Positions 21,432 to 29,777 of a stretch of DNA of 64,000 bases are shown here, in pieces. The stretch is from Euzebya tangerina (GTDB lineage: Bacteria > Actinomycetota > Nitriliruptoria > Euzebyales > Euzebyaceae), in NCBI RefSeq assembly GCF_003074135.1, contig NZ_PPDK01000001.1, positions 1,736,001-1,800,000 of the forward strand. Direction: 5' to 3'. The notes beneath the pieces are model-generated. The model was given only the letters and a program-made list of their open reading frames with translations, was not told where the DNA came from and ran no database searches. Position 1 is the stretch's first letter. Every line of letters starts with the position of its first letter. The translations under genes and the position numbers were made by a program.

Positions 21432-22014
21432 CGGGGCCGTCGTCATCGGGGCCGTCGTCGTCGGGGCCGTCGTCATCGCCACCGTCATCGTCGTCGACAG
21501 GTGGTGGTGGAGGTGGAGGTGGTGGAGGTGGAGGTGGCGCGGGTGCAGCTGGCGGCGGGGGCGGTGGTGGAGCGACGTTCTGAACCTCCTCCGGCCCGTC
21601 GTCATCGTCGTCGGGGCCGTCGTCATCGTCTTCGGGCTCAAGCCCGTCGTCGTCGTCTGCTGGCAGCGGTGGCGGCGGTGGCGGCGGTGCCGGCCGTGGC
21701 GGTGGAGCCGGGGCTGGCGCCGGTTGGGCGGGAACAGGACTCTGCGGTCCGGCGTCGTCACCGGGCGTGCCAGGCGTTGCGGTCTGCGTCGGGCGAGGCT
21801 CAGCCGGCTGTGTCGGGGTGGGGGCTGCAGTCGGAGTCGATCGTGGCGTCGTCGAGGAGTCGGGCTCCGCAGATGTCGGTTCTGGCTGCCGGAGTTGGAT
21901 GGGGTCGATCTCCACCGAACTGGCGGACGTGAGGGTGCCGGACACCCACGCCAGGGCAGCCCACACCACGCCGCCCACGAGGGCAGCAAGCAGAACACGA
22001 AGGGCAGCGGTCAC
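21418..22014 (-). CDS. Secreted Pro/Asp-rich protein, first gene of the two-component operon
   Basis: The 198-residue product starts with one hydrophobic segment (LLAALVGGVVWAALAWVSG, about 8-26), a signal peptide or anchor. A Pro/Thr-rich spacer follows. The C-terminal half alternates long Pro runs with Asp clusters (ADDDDG, EDDDDG) and ends in repeats of GPDDD. No folded domain is visible. Although low in complexity, the frame has an export signal and ends exactly where the kinase gene begins (13-base overlap), which argues it is real. Clustered aspartates suggest divalent-cation binding outside the cell. Together with the kinase this could be a cation- or wall-sensing unit (inference). Confidence 0.7.
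   Translation of the reverse strand: MTAALRVLLAALVGGVVWAALAWVSGTLTSASSVEIDPIQLRQPEPTSAEPDSSTTPRSTPTAAPTPTQPAEPRPTQTATPGTPGDDAGPQSPVPAQPAPAPAPPPRPAPPPPPPPLPADDDDGLEPEDDDDGPDDDDDGPEEVQNVAPPPPPPPAAPAPPPPPPPPPPPPPVDDDDGGDDDGPDDDGPDDDGPDDDD
21420..21480 (-). repeat. 18-base tandem repeat at the overlap of Pro/Asp-rich and kinase genes
   Basis: Units of GGGGCCGTCGTCATC on the plus strand (18-base period, three copies or more). They encode GPDDDD repeats and run into the kinase start codon region. Confidence 0.7.
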
Positions 22015-22049
22015 AACGCCAGTGAGATTGCCACCACTCGCGGCGGCGT

Positions 22050-22080
22050 GGATGAGTCCCAGATGAGAGTTCTCTCATCT
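22050..22080 (-). promoter_or_regulatory. Direct repeat and palindrome upstream of the two-component operon
   Basis: GGATGAG (22050-22056) and AGATGAG (22061-22067) are direct repeats 11 bases apart, the spacing bound by OmpR/PhoB regulators. Overlapping them, AGATGAGAG-TT-CTCTCATCT (22061-22080) is a palindrome with 9-base arms. It lies 36-66 bases before the 22014 start codon. Confidence 0.6.
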
Positions 22081-22111
22081 TCGCCTGCCAGCCCTGGCCT
22101 GCAGCGTCATC

Positions 22112-24196
22112 TCAATCGTCCAGCGTCACGACACCCGATTCCCCATCCAGGGTGATGTGGTCGCCGGTGGAGAGGCGACGTTGGACGTCGACGATCCCGG
22201 TGAGCGTCGGCACGCCCATCTCCCGCAGGATCAGCGCGCCATGCGACAGGTCACCACCCAGGTGCAGCAGCACCCCATCGACCTGACTGAAGGCGGTGGC
22301 CCAGCCCCCGTCGATCGCACGGGCGACCAGGATGACCGGCCCCTCCACCGGAGGGACGTCAGTCGGAGGTTCATGGCACACCCACGCCGTCCCCGACACC
22401 GAGCCGGCCACCAGCACCCGACCGGCCAACGGACCCTCGGCATCCTCCGGTCCGATGAGCGGAGCCGTCCGACCGACCGGGTCGGGCACGTAGACCGCTG
22501 CACGTCGTTCGCGCCGTGACCGCCGCTCCGCCAGGAAGTCAGCGTCCGGCCGCCATCCGTCATCCAGCGAGCGGGCCTCGTCGGTGGTCAACAGCCAGAC
22601 GTCCTCCGGGTTCTCCAGGACGTTCGCGGCCGCCTGCAGGACCATGCGCCGGACCGTGCCGAACGCCTGCATGCCCTCGTCACGAAGTTGCTCGCGTGCA
22701 GTCAGGGACCGGCGCGCCGTCCACCACAAGGGCAGTGCCAGTGTTCCGGCAATCGTCGATCCGACGTCCGAGGAGCGTCCAGTTCGGTGCATCGCCGCTG
22801 CTCGTGCCCGCTCGAGCAGTTCGGGCTGCTCGGCGAACCGCGGCCGGGCCAGGTCAGACTCGTAGACCCCCCGGTGGCCATGCCGTGCCACCAGTGCGGT
22901 CGGTGAGACCCCTGCGGCCAGGTCACGGGCCAGTTGACCCGCTGGCGTCGGCGCTCGTCGCTGGACCTCGTCCAGCAATCCGAGCCGGCTGAGCAGGGAG
23001 ACCTGCACCGCGTGCGCATTGGCCAGGGCGAACATGCCGGTCACCAAGCCGGCATAGGCTGCGGCCGCCGCATCGACGGCAGCCGACATCGCCGGCCCGT
23101 CCACCGACGTGGCAGACCTCGCGGCCAGTCGCGCGTCACGCTGCAGGGCGTGGCCTCGTGCCGCGGCGTCTCCCACGGCCGTGATCTGGCGTCGGGCGAC
23201 ACCGAGCAGGGCGGGGAGACTGCGCGCCAGGCGCGCCGGTGACAGCGGCTCGCCATCGGCCTCTCCCCCCATCGAATCGGCCAGCAGCGAGGTGGGCAGC
23301 CCCCAGGTGCGCAGGATGTCCTGCAGCAGCGAGTTGTTGAGCAGTGGTCGCCCGGCCCGCTCGACCATCAGGTCCCGCTGCACCGGCAGGCGCGGATCCA
23401 ACGAGCCATACCACTCCAGCAACCGCGGACCGCATTCCACGATCAGCGACGTCATGAAGTCGCTCGGCAGATCAGGGAGGATCTCCGCGTGGTTGGCCAG
23501 CGTCAGGGTCTCGTTGCGGATGGTGGGCTGGAGCAGCGGCCGGACCTGGAGGAGCCAGCACGTCTCGCCGTCGTCTGCCCACTCCACATCCCAACCCGCT
23601 GAAGGCTCCACATCCCAACCCACCGCCGGATCGGGATTGCCCAGGACATGCCCGGGTCGCCGGCCGAACACCTGCCTCACCCCCGCCAGCAGATCGGCCA
23701 GACGACGCTGCCACGCCTCGTCGGCGTCGAGGTGCCTGTCCCGCCGTGGGAGCAGCACCTGATCGCCTTCCACGGAACCGCCGACCAGTCCGTCGGCCAG
23801 GCCCTCGGTGACCTCGATCAGATCGTCCAGGTACGGCTCCTCCAGCACCGCAACCCCGGCGTGCTGTGCCGCCACCTGGGTCATCACCAGCACCTCGGTC
23901 TGGGTCACCGACTCGTCTGCGGACGCCCGCACGCGCTGGACGGCCCCGGACAGACCCGCGTGACTCACCCCGAGCTCGGAGTGGAACCGGCCCGCGGCGC
24001 TGGTATCGAGCCCGTCCTCGGCATCGAAGGACGACCGGACGGCCAGTGGCTCACCCAGTGCACTGAGGACGGGGACGAGTTCGGCGGCGTCGACACCTGG
24101 TTGCAGGACGGCGAAGAGCGGTACGCGTAGGCCCGCGTCGGCGGCGAGCTGCAGCATCCGCGACTTGGGTGTCGTCGCGTGACCGGCGGCCCTCAC
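22112..24196 (-). CDS. PEP synthase / rifampin phosphotransferase-like protein
   Basis: The GTG at 24196 overlaps the upstream hydrolase stop, with GGGGAGG 6 bases before it; 694 residues. The N-terminal PPDK_N ATP-grasp region (about 1-250) has LAVRSSFDAEDG...AGRFHS, LVMTQVAAQHAGVAVL and WLLQVRPL. A mostly helical middle (about 260-590) is not recognised. The C-terminal swivelling domain carries the phospho-histidine His652 in GGDLSHGALILREMGVPT. Two ATP-driven phosphotransfer families share this order: PEP synthase (about 790 residues, TIM-barrel end) and rifampin phosphotransferase (about 865). The TIM-barrel PEP-binding domain is absent, so the phosphotransferase layout fits better. The N-terminus is shorter than usual (no GGKGANL). 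Substrate unknown. Confidence 0.78.
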   Translation of the reverse strand: MRAAGHATTPKSRMLQLAADAGLRVPLFAVLQPGVDAAELVPVLSALGEPLAVRSSFDAEDGLDTSAAGRFHSELGVSHAGLSGAVQRVRASADESVTQTEVLVMTQVAAQHAGVAVLEEPYLDDLIEVTEGLADGLVGGSVEGDQVLLPRRDRHLDADEAWQRRLADLLAGVRQVFGRRPGHVLGNPDPAVGWDVEPSAGWDVEWADDGETCWLLQVRPLLQPTIRNETLTLANHAEILPDLPSDFMTSLIVECGPRLLEWYGSLDPRLPVQRDLMVERAGRPLLNNSLLQDILRTWGLPTSLLADSMGGEADGEPLSPARLARSLPALLGVARRQITAVGDAAARGHALQRDARLAARSATSVDGPAMSAAVDAAAAAYAGLVTGMFALANAHAVQVSLLSRLGLLDEVQRRAPTPAGQLARDLAAGVSPTALVARHGHRGVYESDLARPRFAEQPELLERARAAAMHRTGRSSDVGSTIAGTLALPLWWTARRSLTAREQLRDEGMQAFGTVRRMVLQAAANVLENPEDVWLLTTDEARSLDDGWRPDADFLAERRSRRERRAAVYVPDPVGRTAPLIGPEDAEGPLAGRVLVAGSVSGTAWVCHEPPTDVPPVEGPVILVARAIDGGWATAFSQVDGVLLHLGGDLSHGALILREMGVPTLTGIVDVQRRLSTGDHITLDGESGVVTLDD

Positions 24197-24936
24197 CGAT
24201 CCTCCCCGACCAGATCCCTGATCGCCTCCGCCACGACGCGGGCGTACTCGGGCGGGTCGTCGATCATCGGGAAGTGATCCCACGCCGGAATGGTGCGGAC
24301 CTCGGCTTCGGGAAGGACGGCTCTGACGTCGTCTGCCATGTCCGCCGCAAGGACCTGCTCCTCCGCTCCCCACAGCACCACCGCGGGGGTCCGGCGCTGG
24401 GGTAGTGAGTCCCACCAGGCCGCGTTGATGATCTGGAACTGCTGGGCAAACGATTGGCACTCCGCATAGGCCGCCAGCACCGGGTCGACCCGTTCGGCTG
24501 GCGTTGAGTCCGCGAAGAAGCGACGCCTGATCAGCGGTCGCAGCAGCGGCGTGGCGATGCCCCGACGGACGATCTCGGCCACGGGCCGCTTGTTCATCAC
24601 CCGGGGGATCACACGCGTGTCCAGTCGTGGGCCCACCGGCGCGTGCAGGATCACAGCGTCGACCAGGTCGTCGTGGTCGCGCAGGACCTCGAGGACGTGC
24701 GAGCCACCGATGCCGGTCCCGAGCGCGACCACGGGAGAGGGCAGTCCTTCCAGCCGACCTGCCAAGAAGTCGGCGTAGCCGGCCATGTCGGTGATCGTCG
24801 GGTCTGCGGCGGTCCCGCCGAAGCCGGGAAGGGTGGGCGCCATCACGTGCACGTCCTCGGGCAGGTGTGGGGTCATCCAGTCGAAGCGCTCACCACCGCC
24901 GCCGTTGCCGTGTACGGCGAGCAAGGAGATCGTCAT
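24193..24936 (-). CDS. Alpha/beta-hydrolase-fold protein with glycine at the nucleophile position
   Basis: The product has 247 residues: LLAVHGNGGGGERFDW, MAPTLPGFGGTA, then the elbow LGTGIGGSHV, where Gly75 stands at the position of the catalytic serine. The acid strand reads VVLWGAEEQVL (Glu in place of Asp), and the histidine is kept in AWDHFPMIDDP. Serine hydrolysis by the usual mechanism is therefore doubtful. It may be a non-hydrolytic member, or Ser79 may substitute. The start has GGGGAGAG 10 bases upstream. It is coupled by a GTGA overlap to the PEP-synthase-like gene, suggesting joint function. Confidence 0.82.
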   Translation of the reverse strand: MTISLLAVHGNGGGGERFDWMTPHLPEDVHVMAPTLPGFGGTAADPTITDMAGYADFLAGRLEGLPSPVVALGTGIGGSHVLEVLRDHDDLVDAVILHAPVGPRLDTRVIPRVMNKRPVAEIVRRGIATPLLRPLIRRRFFADSTPAERVDPVLAAYAECQSFAQQFQIINAAWWDSLPQRRTPAVVLWGAEEQVLAADMADDVRAVLPEAEVRTIPAWDHFPMIDDPPEYARVVAEAIRDLVGEDR

Positions 24937-24975
24937 GCGCCAACTCTCCCCGTCTGTCGCTGGAATGATCCAGGG

Positions 24976-25383
24976 TCAGGATCGAGGGACGACGTAGGTC
25001 CCCTGGGCGGTCGAGACGGGGCGATCGCGGTCCTCGTCACACCACACCCGCACGGTCCCGACGATCGTGCGCCTGCCGGGCTTGTCCAGCGTTGCCCTGG
25101 CCCACAGCACCGTGCCCTGGGCGGGGCGGAGGAAGCGGATGGACAGTTCCGAGGTGACGGCCATCAACTCGATCCGGCCGAGCACGACGAAGCTCAGGTA
25201 CCACAGCGCACCGTCACACATGGCGAACTGCGTGGGTCCGCTGACCAACTCGCCGGGCCGCAGGACCTCGGGGCCGATCTCCTGCCGACAGACCACGTAG
25301 TCCTCGCCGATCTCGTGGCAGACGTACTGCTTCCCGGGCAACTCGTTGGCCAGGGAGGTGTTGATGAGGTCGGGGGTCAGCAT
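24976..25383 (-). CDS. Hotdog-fold thioesterase-like protein (PaaI type)
   Basis: The product has 135 residues, starting at the ATG that overlaps the LuxR stop (TGATG). A TTG just before it is less likely. The sequence has LRPGELVSGPTQFAMCDGALWYLSF, the hotdog helix with Asp at the usual catalytic position. SELSIRFLRPAQGTVLWARATLDKPGRR and VGTVRVW follow, matching PaaI/4HBT proteins. It would cleave an acyl-CoA or related thioester. It is translationally coupled to the large LuxR regulator and 39 bases from the serine-less hydrolase gene. Confidence 0.85.
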   Translation of the reverse strand: MLTPDLINTSLANELPGKQYVCHEIGEDYVVCRQEIGPEVLRPGELVSGPTQFAMCDGALWYLSFVVLGRIELMAVTSELSIRFLRPAQGTVLWARATLDKPGRRTIVGTVRVWCDEDRDRPVSTAQGTYVVPRS

Positions 25384-27932
25384 CAACCCAAACTACCCAA
25401 CAGGACGAGGGCCTCGGTCCGCGAGCGCACATCGAGCGTGGCGTAGGCGTGCTGGAGGTGCTTGCGGACGGTGGCCGGCGAGATCCCCAGGCTGGCGCCG
25501 ATCTCGGCGTTCGACCCGCCGGTTCGCAGCGCCAGCAGCACCTCTGCCTCACGCGGCCGGAGACCGAACTGGGAGGTCAGCAGTGTGCTCAGATCCGCCG
25601 TGCTGAGCGGCTCGCTGCCGGGCCCGTTGCTGCTGCCTGGATCCACGGGGCTCGAGGCAACCTGGGGGACCACGCCACCAGCCGCCCGCACGAGCGGGAC
25701 CAGTTCACGGCACGCCTCCCGCTCCGCGACGGGTGCCGCCTCCAGCAGCCCGATGGCGGCGTAGGCAGCGAATGCCCGGCCGGCCTCATCGGTTGCATCC
25801 TCGCCGCCCCGGTGCCGGGCCAGTGCTCGCAGCAGCATGATCCGCGGGACCTCGAACGGCTCCTGCTCGTCAAGGTCGATCGAGTGGGCCAACTCGAGCG
25901 CCGTGACGGGGTCGCCCAGCCGAGCCTCCAGCCCGAGCTCCGCGACGGCCACGGCCCGGGGGTCCTCGGCCCGGCGGTCCTGCGCGCGTGCCAGTCGCGC
26001 TCGGGCATCGGCCTCCAGCCCCGCGCGTGCCAGCGCGTCCGCGACCTGTGCGTAGAACAGCACACCGGTGACGGTCTCGAGCCAGTCCCCGGCGACGGCC
26101 TCAGCTCGTTGCACGGCGGCGAGCGTGGCCAGGCCCCGCCCGCGCATCGACTCACACGTCGCGCGGGCCCAGGCGGCGTACGCCACGTGTTGGTCGTCGT
26201 GCTGCAGCTCGGCCAACCGGGAGGCGATGTCGAGGTCTTGCTCGGCAGCCTCCAGGTCACCCAGCCACAGGTGCGTCTCCGCCCGATTGATCCGCCAGGC
26301 CGTCGCCTGTGTGTCGGGGCCGAGCATCGCCTCGATGCGATCGAAGGTCTCGACGACCTGCCGCAGCCGCCCCAGCTCGAGGAGCACCACCCACGCGAGG
26401 TCCCGCAACACCAGCGCCGCCTGCTCCAGGTCCCCGGCCCGCTCCGCGGCCTCAGCTGCGCGGCGCAGGCCCGCCTCAGCGGCCGCCACGCCGTCGCGAC
26501 GTGCCAGCAGCAGCGCCAGCCCCTGCTCGAGGCGGCTGCGCGTTGCCAGGTCGCGGACGCTGCCAAGGAGCTCCTCGGCGGCATCGATGTCCGCCGGGTC
26601 GGGGGTCGGGGAGAAGTACGCCAGGTCGCGGAAGCGCTCTGCCTGCAGGGCAGCCGCGACCTCTGGAGCGTCGTCACGCAGCTTCGGCGCCCACGTCCGG
26701 ACGTAGCTGTTGCGCTCCTCGTATCTCGCACTGGCCGTGAGCAGTCGGGCGATCTGGGTGTGGATGCCTGGCTGCGCGGCCCGGACCTGATCGTCGAAGG
26801 ATCGCAGGACGGCCAGAACGGACGGCGTGAACGCGGCGGTGAGCTCATGCGACGGAGCGGCGGCCAGGCTGGCCGCAGCCAACTCCGCCTGATCGTTGGC
26901 CACCGCGTACCTCGCGGCCTCCAGATGCAACCCGCTGGCTGCGTAGACCTGTACGACCAGATCCACGACATCGTCGGTTGCGCGTGGGGGCGCGAGCAGG
27001 TCAGCGACCGGATCAGGCAACGTCCACAGACCGATCTCCGGGGTCTCCCACGGCAGTCCGGCGCGGACGACGGCTCTGACCGCATCATCGACCGCCAGCC
27101 GACGTGCCAGTCGCGCGTCCAGGACGGGGAGTCCAGCGGCCACGCCGGCGGCCTCCCTGGTCGCGGCCGGTACATCCGTCAGCATCCCGGAGACGACGGT
27201 TTCCAGCGCCACGTTGCTGTGGGCCAACTGGCGGGCCAGCTGGTCCGGGGAGGGGCTGGTGGCCAGAGCCCCGAGAATCGACCGGAGCACGGTCAGCCAA
27301 CCACCGGTTCGCCGCACGAGCAGCTCGGACAGACCACGCGTCAGACCTGACGGCACCACGTCGGTCAGTAGCAGGTCGAACTCCTCGACCGTGAGCGCGA
27401 GATCGGCACCCCCCAGCACCACTCCCCGACGGCGTGCTGCGGCCACGTCGAGCTCTCTGCCCAGTGCGATCAACCGGTGCCGGCTGCCCTCGGCCTCGTG
27501 CAGCAGGGTGATCGAGTGGGCGATCGCCGCAACGGCCGGCCAGGTGAGTGGTGTGACCTCGTCGATCACGATCAAGTGCGGCCGGCGACGACGGCGCAGC
27601 GCCTCGGCCACACGGTCGGCAAGCCGGCTCCACGCCGCGTCCGCGGTGCCGGAGCCATCCAACTCCGTGTCACCCGGGGCGAGATCGGACAGACCGAGCG
27701 GATCGAGGATGCGGCCGGCTGCGTCAGCGACCCCCGTCATCTGGGCACCCGAGGTCCAGGCGACGTTGCCGCGGAAGCTGGCCGCGACCTCGCTGGCGAG
27801 GGTCGACTTGCCCCAGCCGCCACCAGCCACCACAACCGTTACCGCGTGGTCGGTGACACGACGGACCAACGCCGGCCGCGCCACGTGAGCATCGGGCAGG
27901 GGCGGCGGGGTCGACAGGACTGCCCGCGTCAT
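25383..27932 (-). CDS. LuxR-family ATP-dependent transcriptional regulator (MalT/LAL-like)
   Basis: The product has 849 residues. The Walker A motif is VVAGGGWGKST (35-44). An NTPase region with ARD/TPR-like helical repeats covers about 330-760 (many Ala/Arg/Glu/Leu helices). A C-terminal LuxR HTH runs from about 790 to 848 (LRPREAEVLLALRTGGSNAEIGASLGIS, then ATVRKHLQHAYATLDVRSRTEAL). LAL regulators bind ATP and an inducer before activating target promoters. It is the first gene of a chain with the thioesterase, hydrolase and PEP-synthase-like genes, which are its likely targets. TAGGAT (27941-27946 on the complement) sits 8 bases before the ATG. A 7-7-7 inverted repeat lies over this promoter. 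Confidence 0.92.
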   Translation of the reverse strand: MTRAVLSTPPPLPDAHVARPALVRRVTDHAVTVVVAGGGWGKSTLASEVAASFRGNVAWTSGAQMTGVADAAGRILDPLGLSDLAPGDTELDGSGTADAAWSRLADRVAEALRRRRRPHLIVIDEVTPLTWPAVAAIAHSITLLHEAEGSRHRLIALGRELDVAAARRRGVVLGGADLALTVEEFDLLLTDVVPSGLTRGLSELLVRRTGGWLTVLRSILGALATSPSPDQLARQLAHSNVALETVVSGMLTDVPAATREAAGVAAGLPVLDARLARRLAVDDAVRAVVRAGLPWETPEIGLWTLPDPVADLLAPPRATDDVVDLVVQVYAASGLHLEAARYAVANDQAELAAASLAAAPSHELTAAFTPSVLAVLRSFDDQVRAAQPGIHTQIARLLTASARYEERNSYVRTWAPKLRDDAPEVAAALQAERFRDLAYFSPTPDPADIDAAEELLGSVRDLATRSRLEQGLALLLARRDGVAAAEAGLRRAAEAAERAGDLEQAALVLRDLAWVVLLELGRLRQVVETFDRIEAMLGPDTQATAWRINRAETHLWLGDLEAAEQDLDIASRLAELQHDDQHVAYAAWARATCESMRGRGLATLAAVQRAEAVAGDWLETVTGVLFYAQVADALARAGLEADARARLARAQDRRAEDPRAVAVAELGLEARLGDPVTALELAHSIDLDEQEPFEVPRIMLLRALARHRGGEDATDEAGRAFAAYAAIGLLEAAPVAEREACRELVPLVRAAGGVVPQVASSPVDPGSSNGPGSEPLSTADLSTLLTSQFGLRPREAEVLLALRTGGSNAEIGASLGISPATVRKHLQHAYATLDVRSRTEALVLLGSLG

Positions 27933-27946
27933 CGCCCCGAATCCTA

Positions 27947-27967
27947 GTGACCTCTGACTCAGGTCAC
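27947..27967 (-). promoter_or_regulatory. Inverted repeat over the LuxR gene promoter
   Basis: GTGACCT, 7-base spacer, AGGTCAC: perfect arms. It lies between the deduced -10 (TAGGAT, 27946-27941) and the -35 region of the LuxR gene. It is a candidate operator for this regulator or for the SARP protein encoded upstream. Confidence 0.55.
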
Positions 27968-28019
27968 GAGTGCCGGTTCCGGCGCGCTGACCGGTTGGAG
28001 TGCCCTGAGCGTTATCGCA

Positions 28020-29777
28020 TCAGGCGGCCAGCGGGGTGGACCGCGGTGCCGCGCGGACCGCCGGCGCATCGGTCGATCGCAGTGCGGTCAGCAGGAGCGC
28101 CTCCTCGCGCAGACCTGGAGGCAGCCGGTCGAGGACCAACCGGCGCAGGAGCGGGTGGGTGAACACCAGGTGCCCGTGCGCGTCGTGCCGCAGCGGCCCA
28201 TCTGCTGCGACGGCCTCGTCCAGGGTGTGCTGGTCGACTGCAGTTGGCTCTCGGACCACACCGAGCGCAACCTGCTCGACCAACGCGATGACGCCGCGGC
28301 TGTGGCGCCCGAGGCCCTTGCCGATGGCGGTGACGATCGGTGAGGGCACTCGCTCGGTGGTGCTCAGATGAGCCAGAGCGCCAGGAGTGACCCGTGTTGT
28401 CCGACAGATGTCGGCCAGGCCGATCACGGGGTCGGGCGAGTGGCCGACCAGTGTCATCAGGATCCGCACGTCAGATGCTGGGACCTTGGCCAACCGCGCC
28501 AACTCCTGGACGGCCAGCGGGCTCAGCTCGGAGAGGGCAACCTCCGACCGTCCGGGAACCCCGCAGCTGGCGGTCCGGCTGGTGGCCAGCACGCGACAGT
28601 CCACCTGGCGAAGGGCATCCACGAGCACCTCGCGGCTGAGCGGTGCCAGCCGGTCGACATCATCCAGCACCAGCAGCGAGGTGTCCCGCAGCCTGAGCGT
28701 GAGCCGCTGGACCAGGTCCTCCAGCCGGCTCGGGCCCGACGTTCGGTCCATCTCCTCCGGCGAGCTGTCCGTTGAGCCCGCCTGCGCCACAGCATCACGG
28801 ATGCTGGCCAGCGCGGTCATCCGGCTCTGGCCGCACGCCATCGTCATCGTCGGTCCGGGCCAGTCCCGCGCGAGGGCCTGGACGATCCTGCTCTTGCCCG
28901 ACCCAGAGGTACCGACGAGGAGCACAGTGGCGCCACTCGTGAGCCGGCGTCGGATCAGGTTGATGTCCTCCGTCCGGCCGACCAGCGGCTGCGTTGCCGT
29001 CTCGGCCTGGCTCCGAGTGGTCTCCCAGATCCACGCCTCCAGGCCACGCAGCGCCGGCCCGGGCGACTCGCCACGCAGGTCGGCGATGCTGCGGCACGCC
29101 TTGCGGTAGAGCGCCGCGGCATCCAGTCGGCGGCCCAGTGCGAGCAGCAGCTCGACCTCCTGGACCCACGGGTCGTCCAGCTGCGGGGCGGAGATGCGGC
29201 GCCTGGTGGCCAGCACGAGGGCATCGGTGATCTTGCCGGCTTGCTGGAGGATGCGAACCTGCTGGCCCAGCGCCTCGTCGAACGCACGATGCAACCGGCT
29301 GCGCTCGCCGAGGACCTCCGGAAGGTCCGGCAGATCGGCGAACCACGATGGTCGTCCGACCTGGGTGCCCCCCAGCTCGCTGGATCCAGCCAGGCCGTCG
29401 CCCACCCGGATCGTCATCTCGTCAAGCCAATCGATGTCGGTGGTTGCCGTCGATGGGAGCCGATATCGACCGTGATCCAGTGTCAGGTTGAGCCCAGTCT
29501 TCCGACGGATCCGGGAGATCGAGTTGTGCAGGGACTGCCGGGCGGCCTTGGGTGCCTGACCGTCCGGCCAGCGCATCTCGGACAGACCATCGAGGGTGAG
29601 GCCCCGGTCGCGATGCAGGACCAGTGCGGCCACGACGACTCGTTCGCCGGGCGAGAGGGGGACGGCGGTCCCGTCGACGGTCACCGTCGTGGGGCCGTCG
29701 ACCGTGATCAGGGTGGTCCGGGATCGTGAGGATGTGGGGGCGTTCTCGGCTGGTGGGCTGACTGCGAAGGTGCTCAT
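28020..29777 (-). CDS. SARP/AfsR-like regulator with BTAD and ATPase domains
   Basis: The product has 585 residues. An N-terminal winged-helix DNA-binding domain covers about 20-105 (TVTVDGTAVPLSPGERVVVAALVL, then ARQSLHNSISRIRRKTG). The BTAD helical domain follows (about 115-265: QVRILQQAGKITDALVLATRR, then RLDAAALYRKACRSIADLRG). The NTPase has Walker A LVGTSGSGKSR near 287 and Walker B LLVLDDVDRL. These proteins activate secondary-metabolite or stress gene clusters in actinobacteria. The C-terminal TPR region of full AfsR is missing. It is followed on the same strand by the LuxR regulator, so two STAND-type ATPase regulators lie in tandem. Two palindromes stand directly upstream. Confidence 0.9.
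   Translation of the reverse strand: MSTFAVSPPAENAPTSSRSRTTLITVDGPTTVTVDGTAVPLSPGERVVVAALVLHRDRGLTLDGLSEMRWPDGQAPKAARQSLHNSISRIRRKTGLNLTLDHGRYRLPSTATTDIDWLDEMTIRVGDGLAGSSELGGTQVGRPSWFADLPDLPEVLGERSRLHRAFDEALGQQVRILQQAGKITDALVLATRRRISAPQLDDPWVQEVELLLALGRRLDAAALYRKACRSIADLRGESPGPALRGLEAWIWETTRSQAETATQPLVGRTEDINLIRRRLTSGATVLLVGTSGSGKSRIVQALARDWPGPTMTMACGQSRMTALASIRDAVAQAGSTDSSPEEMDRTSGPSRLEDLVQRLTLRLRDTSLLVLDDVDRLAPLSREVLVDALRQVDCRVLATSRTASCGVPGRSEVALSELSPLAVQELARLAKVPASDVRILMTLVGHSPDPVIGLADICRTTRVTPGALAHLSTTERVPSPIVTAIGKGLGRHSRGVIALVEQVALGVVREPTAVDQHTLDEAVAADGPLRHDAHGHLVFTHPLLRRLVLDRLPPGLREEALLLTALRSTDAPAVRAAPRSTPLAA

Follow-up and report, generated by a model that had tools for sequence, protein, structure and literature searches.

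We analyzed four genes of Euzebya tangerina that lie on the minus strand at 22112-27932 of a 64,000-nucleotide stretch of contig NZ_PPDK01000001.1 (assembly GCF_003074135.1, positions 1,736,001 to 1,800,000), hereafter called the window. They encode, from upstream to downstream, a LAL-type LuxR regulator of 849 amino acids (25383..27932), a 4HBT hotdog thioesterase-like protein of 135 amino acids (24976..25383), an alpha/beta-hydrolase-fold protein of 247 amino acids (24193..24936), and a putative small-molecule dikinase of 694 amino acids that begins with GTG (22112..24196). A first-pass annotation had described a tightly packed chain, and its account of the junctions was accurate: the regulator and thioesterase genes have one base in common (TGATG), 39 bases separate the thioesterase from the alpha/beta gene, and the kinase gene starts (GTG, 24196-24194) within the last four bases of the alpha/beta gene, stop included (GTGA), with the kinase frame ending at 22112. 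As detailed below, only the last two of these genes, encoding the kinase and its alpha/beta partner, form a conserved unit.

Pfam domains over cut-off were GerE, the C-terminal helix-turn-helix of the regulator (1.5e-11, 44.2 bits against 23.5), 4HBT (2e-11, 44.5 bits against 20.6), Abhydrolase_6 (4.1e-18), and, in the kinase, PEP-utilizers (3.7e-15); PPDK_N on the same 694-residue protein reached 26.2 bits, slightly below its cut-off of 27. The N terminus of the regulator reached 20.2 bits with AAA_22, under the cut-off of 27, and a Walker A-like GGGWGKST can be read in its sequence. Neither a sigma-70-like promoter nor a minus-strand terminator-like site was found within 21950-28200, a result of little weight given that shuffled sequences yield 0.0 and 0.9, respectively; one terminator-like site lies on the plus strand there.

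All three domains of the kinase are carried on one open frame, with approximate limits of ~1-222 for the ATP-grasp domain, ~223-585 for a helical acceptor domain, and ~590-694 for a phospho-His swivel domain, whose His652 stands 42 residues before the C terminus. Among 24 kinase members, Pfam at E<=0.01 found PPDK_N and PEP-utilizers only, and no pyruvate/phosphoenolpyruvate (PEP)-binding domain. An AlphaFold2 model from 24 alignment rows had a mean predicted local distance difference test score (pLDDT) of 88.5 and a predicted template modeling score (pTM) of 0.87. With the whole chain as the query, the best Foldseek match was the rifampin phosphotransferase RPH-Lm (5hv1, E 2.7e-25), which VIA-align also placed first (Z 26.1, root-mean-square deviation [rmsd] 13.3, 601 aligned). 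We read the large whole-chain rmsd as differing domain placement, because the middle and swivel domains of a fused homologue superpose on 5fbu (Z 25.2, rmsd 3.9, 422 aligned).

A profile alignment to RPH-Lm, with residue numbers counted by hand, paired Lys11, Arg54, Glu205, Gln217, and Arg219 of the ATP-grasp domain with Lys22, Arg117, Glu297, Gln309, and Arg311 of RPH and, in the rest of the chain, Arg501, Glu502, Arg505, and His652 with Arg666, Glu667, Lys670, and His825. These nine catalytic positions are identical in all members of the 36 core kinases described below that cover them (34 or 35 at each). The RPH paper (PMC4844700) connects Lys22, Arg117, Arg666/Glu667, and His825 with catalysis, its mutants assigning the first two and Arg666-Glu667 to one or other of the half reactions. 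The likeness to rifampin phosphotransferase that had been proposed from the window is thus upheld by sequence profile and predicted fold together and, judged by that fold and the catalytic set, the 694-residue protein is a single-chain RPH-type small-molecule dikinase. Two further proteins encoded by the window genome have a strong PPDK_N domain.

The partner, as the first-pass annotation had recognized, has lost the hydrolase nucleophile: Gly75 occupies the position of the serine of GxSxG hydrolases, and glycine was found there in 28 of the 28 relatives that cover the elbow. The rest of the pocket is retained. Among the 31 rows examined (L040 and L157 represent two pieces of a single gene), His98 was present in 29/29, Trp219 and His221 in 30/30 each, and Asp or Glu at position 193 in 30/30, while the oxyanion (HGNGG) loop had His9 in 25/27 and Gly10-Asn11-Gly12 in 27/27. 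A model of a fused homologue (34 rows, mean pLDDT 92.3, pTM 0.81) placed its alpha/beta domain close to esterases and haloperoxidase-like hydrolases (5h3h_B: Z 23.9, rmsd 2.9, 236 aligned). With the pocket kept but its nucleophile gone, hydrolysis through an acyl-enzyme is less plausible than binding or acid-base chemistry, and the conservation pattern suggests that the partner most likely binds the kinase acceptor or acts on it, or on its phosphorylated product, by acid-base chemistry.

Kinase and partner were found together in most of the relatives that we collected. After duplicate contigs had been removed by hand, the set comprised 36 kinase loci counted as core and two (L126 and L127) counted as distant, and the partner was present in 30 of the 36. 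In nine of these paired loci, the two proteins are in one open frame, for example at L036:8155-10980; in 20, they occupy touching or overlapping stop-to-stop frames on the same strand; and in L047, the partner lies 2,039 bases from the kinase. At L006 and L060, the kinase locus ends at a contig edge. When 12 carrier genomes were searched as a whole at 1e-20, nine had exactly one partner, which lay close to the kinase (at a distance of 2 kb in G421). Distances between kinases were correlated with those between partners (Mantel r 0.895, 0/5000 permutations, 27 pairs). Genomes that carry the pair come from Actinomycetota, Chloroflexi, Acidobacteria, Chlorobi-like, Eremiobacterota, and Obscuribacterales lineages. 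When species genomes were scanned with the kinase as the query, 20 loci were returned, in Acidimicrobiales/Acidimicrobiia, Ilumatobacter, Thermoleophilia, Nitriliruptoraceae, Egibacter, Gemmatimonadaceae, Anaerolineae, Acidobacteria, Bryobacterales, Eremiobacterota, Obscuribacterales, and Thermochlorobacteriaceae.

The same comparison dissolved the remainder of the chain. Scattered genes in relatives had been named as what would speak against one four-gene system, and such relatives exist: the regulator and the thioesterase drop out, whereas the kinase and its partner withstand this comparison strongly. Co-occurrence of the four families was rejected, as the thioesterase occurs in 1 of 81 genomes (no relative at E<=1e-10 in the 80 related genomes, only its own genome matching) and the LAL regulator is found in genus mates without the other three families nearby. 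The LAL gene lies directly beside a SARP-like regulator gene in G002 (55.7% identity) and G003 (55.6%); in G001, the LAL protein is more distant (43.5% identity), and no SARP-like gene was seen in its stretch. No member of the kinase, alpha/beta, or 4HBT families was detected, even at E 1, in the stretches fetched around these three LAL genes (17,000 bases in G002 and 16,000 in G003), to which the alpha/beta search in the mates was confined. When whole genomes were searched, the top kinase hits of G001, G002, and G003 (8.9e-14, 4.3e-14, and 1.0e-17) covered the C-terminal part only. Since the genus-mate LAL loci lack the other three families and the thioesterase has no relatives, the regulator and the thioesterase are particular to this locus. 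What stands of the earlier overall proposal is therefore a small-molecule-modifying system that includes an ATP-dependent His phosphotransferase of RPH-like type; what falls is the idea of one four-gene system.

In the window, the gene next to the LAL regulator, on its upstream side, encodes a BTAD/AAA (SARP-like) regulator (28020..29777, minus strand), which is context outside the kinase unit. The two regulator genes adjoin at 25383-29777 here, as they do in two genus mates (L084:8550-13551 and L085:8658-13218). An integrase-like frame, named by eye, lies downstream of the LAL gene of G003 (L085:5470-6369), on the flank that carries the three-gene block in the window, and the spot downstream of LAL may accept insertions. 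Base composition gave no sign of recent import (GC content of 70.6% for the kinase, 68.7% for the alpha/beta gene, and 67.6% for 4HBT, with 69% for the window), and a search for a plasmid home gave no match at 1e-40. PADLOC found no defense-system match for the kinase, the partner, the thioesterase, or one peroxiredoxin-like protein of the kind described below; its single weak, CARF-type match was to the helix-turn-helix of the LAL regulator.

Beyond the pair, close neighbors seldom recur and indicate no single pathway, so an attempt to derive the substrate from the neighborhood was abandoned. The two distant kinase relatives (E about 1e-60 to 1e-70) have a neighbor of 374-380 residues that looks similar by eye (L126:6730-10319 and L127:6018-10555), and the L126 copy had no Pfam match. 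An enoyl-CoA hydratase gene lies upstream of the kinase in two Gemmatimonadaceae loci in which the partner is missing (L044:7881-8753 and L050:8145-8912; Pfam was run on L044 only). Two Acidimicrobiia loci have an SRPBCC protein adjoining the pair. In five loci, a cluster of signaling-type proteins, named by eye, lies kilobases away.

A third gene does recur. In 15 genomes, the partner gene is immediately preceded by a gene for a peroxiredoxin-like protein of the AhpC-TSA_2 family (PF13911, over cut-off in both proteins scanned); in two of them (G724 and G663), the contig stops within the partner gene, so that just its beginning is seen after the peroxiredoxin-like one. Close members were found in 16 of the 30 genomes searched (27 kinase carriers and three genus mates). 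The sixteenth, G883, has the kinase without an adjoining partner and the peroxiredoxin-like gene elsewhere, and a seventeenth, G008, was left out as a distant match (4.7e-16). The window has no such gene, and its genome (G000) has no family member at 1e-15. In 10 of the 16 genomes, the first Cys of the CxxC motif is an in-frame TGA (HFG-U-LFPKE and similar), which would give the motif U-x-x-P/Y/R; TGA genes lie directly upstream of the pair at L045:1383-1910, L114:7935-8462, L105:1774-2307, L116:5896-6435, L036:7601-8155, L039:7471-8049, L117:6249-6782, and L118:9096-9617.

This protein is probably a selenoprotein, as the TGA genomes, and no Cys genome, combine SelB over the curated cut-off (10/10 against 0/6) with a strong selenocysteine (Sec) tRNA, "strong" meaning above a line of 60 bits that was set after the scores had been seen. 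The tRNA scored 64.8-75.2 bits in the ten TGA genomes; among the Cys genomes, G359 and G882, at 49 bits, cleared the Rfam threshold of 47, and the other four fell below it. By a hand calculation, such a split would arise by chance once in 8,008. Kinship is a confounder, as nine of the ten TGA genomes come from the class of G203 (the tenth, G429, is labeled Acidimicrobiales), and the class of G424 accounts for five of the six genomes with Cys. The Sec machinery also occurs in six or more genomes without the gene (among them G000, G012, G037, G420, G618, and G705); in the window genome, we located the tRNA-Sec at C1:1437790-1437881 and SelB over cut-off at C1:1328534-1329580.

A hairpin of 7 bp after the TGA, resembling a bacterial selenocysteine insertion sequence (bSECIS), was scored at eight loci, the same eight sequences from which its stem had been derived. 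Cells were paired in 87.5% and seven were doubly changed, each reached in 0/500 shuffles; the covariation score was 0.352 (0/500), and slid versions were 30-50% paired. Its weak points are that the double-change pairs (193/500) and the pair types (268/500) are ordinary and that L118 fits poorly. A Sec-containing peroxiredoxin-like protein is a known kind, since the cd02970 family is already listed in a 2026 review (PMC13188914), the main text of which mentions neither a dikinase nor a hydrolase. Our literature search gave no link between a selenoprotein and a dikinase in the titles and abstract openings among the matches listed, a minority of the total.

Building on the domain order, predicted fold, conserved residues, pairing, and fusions found at these loci, and borrowing the chemistry by homology with RPH, we consider it fairly probable that the pair forms a two-protein enzyme in which the RPH-type dikinase phosphorylates an acceptor via phospho-His652 and the alpha/beta partner binds or processes the acceptor or the product. 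The acceptor would most likely be a hydroxylated or enolic small molecule. In such an enzyme, the ATP-grasp domain would hold ATP via Lys11, Arg54, Glu205, Gln217, and Arg219; His652 of the swivel domain would attack the beta-phosphate and carry pyrophosphate, and the gamma-phosphate would be released as Pi. The swivel domain would then move to the helical middle, where Arg501-Glu502, with Arg505, would help to transfer the phosphate to the acceptor, for a net reaction of ATP + H2O + X-OH -> X-OPO3 + AMP + Pi. The partner, encoded just upstream or fused at the N terminus, keeps its pocket (the HGNGG loop, His98, His221, and the acid) but cannot form an acyl-enzyme via the usual residue. Speculatively, the thioesterase of the window could act on an acyl-CoA or acyl-carrier to provide the acceptor, and control of the gene set could lie with the LAL protein; in the 15 relatives, the peroxiredoxin-like protein, often with Sec, may add a redox step. 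More tentatively, these genes could represent a portable cross-phylum pathway in which a Sec/Cys peroxiredoxin-like enzyme, the nucleophile-less hydrolase-fold protein, and the RPH-type dikinase would act in sequence on one metabolite, with the window holding a copy where a thioesterase replaces the redox step under a resident LAL regulator.

Several observations weigh against the two-protein enzyme. Acceptor-domain residues ~223-400 cannot be aligned to RPH by sequence and have conserved blocks of their own (GRPxINLSLL...); acceptor chemistry therefore cannot be transferred from RPH. The kept glutamate at the equivalent of Glu297 says little, because Glu297 is reported to be dispensable in RPH mutants (PMC4844700). 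At L044, L050, L052, and L124, the kinase has no partner at the locus, so the partner is dispensable there; the genomes of the first three are the remaining 3 of the 12 searched, with no partner anywhere at 1e-20 (the L124 genome was outside that search). The distance correlation between kinase and partner includes shared species history. Lastly, the kinase family is rare and patchy: it was found in at least 10 of 396 genomes of the phylum of the window at 1e-60, two of them distant, and, at 1e-100, in at least 11 of 395 genomes of the class of G203 and in 5 of 98 of that of G424. The phylum and G203-class counts are lower bounds, with at most two candidates scored per genome, and several genomes recur between searches.

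The conserved pocket also bears on what else the partner might be. It could be catalytically inert and act as a scaffold or binding subunit that brings the acceptor within reach of the swivel domain, a possibility that we hold only tentatively: loss of the nucleophile in all 28 covering relatives favors it and fusion to the N terminus of the ATP-grasp domain suits a structural subunit, but His98, Trp219, His221, and the acid are always kept, and the oxyanion loop nearly so, which exceeds the needs of a bare scaffold. A phosphorylation-driven ligase like PigC/RedH, in which the kinase would activate one molecule as its phosphate and the partner condense it with a second, appears unlikely. The PigC (best 6.3e-38) and RedH (best 6.8e-35) models do match 24/24 kinase members, as do the RPH and PEP-synthase-like models, but the window kinase scores far below both cut-offs (70.1 bits of 1300 and 48 of 1350), and no biosynthetic gene set was recognized by eye among the neighbors listed, most of which carry no tool annotation.

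That the kinase is strictly a rifamycin phosphotransferase, and thus inactivates an antibiotic, strikes us as very improbable. Its fold, domain order, and catalytic residues are those expected of RPH, but it scores only 60.5 bits against the curated 999 of RIF_Ptrans_rph (39.5 against 1700 with a second rifamycin phosphotransferase model), and no alpha/beta partner is mentioned in the portions consulted of the RPH and HpeHI papers (PMC4844700 and PMC12167813). The unaligned part of the acceptor domain also suggests that the acceptor is probably not a rifamycin. Least credible is an ordinary gene neighborhood with no functional link: the four loci with the kinase alone and the wide variation of other neighbors point that way, but 30 of 36 paired loci, nine fusions, and a single partner near the kinase in nine of 12 whole genomes contradict it. 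We therefore retain the two-protein enzyme, with a dikinase that phosphorylates a small molecule and a partner that binds or processes it, as our preferred reading.

Few dikinase reactions have been described, acting on rifamycins and several phenols in the reports available to us (PMC4844700 and PMC12167813). A fixed, often fused partner without a nucleophile points to a metabolite yet to be named and possibly to new alpha/beta-fold chemistry; the probable selenoprotein upstream is a redox clue, and the natural fusions offer a target for single-gene expression. Our literature search, for which subscription papers were mostly out of reach and which is thus a weak negative, found no dikinase with a hydrolase-fold partner, and a search for Euzebya with PEP synthase found nothing.

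Among characterized systems, RPH-Lm (5hv1 and 5fbs-5fbu) is the closest, as it combines ATP-grasp, acceptor domain, and C-terminal His swivel in a single chain with the same catalytic residues. The window kinase differs from it in length (694 against 867 residues), in a large deletion in the ATP-grasp N-lobe, in residues ~223-400, in scoring far below the RPH model cut-off, and in having an alpha/beta partner. The two-component phenolic dikinases HpeHI, CreHI, and PpsAB likewise act on small molecules and have RPH-type domains, and HpeI (9goj) matches the ATP-grasp part of the window kinase (Z 12.9, rmsd 4.7, 192 aligned); their ATP-grasp is described as being on a separate chain (PMC12167813), whereas the window has one chain and an alpha/beta partner. 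PEP synthase and PPDK also use ATP-grasp and a phospho-His swivel, but in the window kinase the His domain is C-terminal and no pyruvate/PEP-binding domain was detected; PEP synthase or PPDK proper is disfavored because Pfam finds only PPDK_N and PEP-utilizers. Prodigiosin ligation, by PigC/RedH, is a further small-molecule dikinase reaction, and these enzymes belong by profile to a common broad dikinase family with the window kinase, which stays far below their cut-offs. Aryl esterases, haloperoxidase-like perhydrolases, and the D14/KAI2 receptors share with the partner the complete alpha/beta fold and the His and acid but, unlike it, have a Ser, Cys, or Asp nucleophile where all 28 rows have glycine. 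Taken together, these comparisons make the window kinase and its well-supported partner a variant of the small-molecule dikinases, set apart by a one-chain kinase and a fixed alpha/beta partner.

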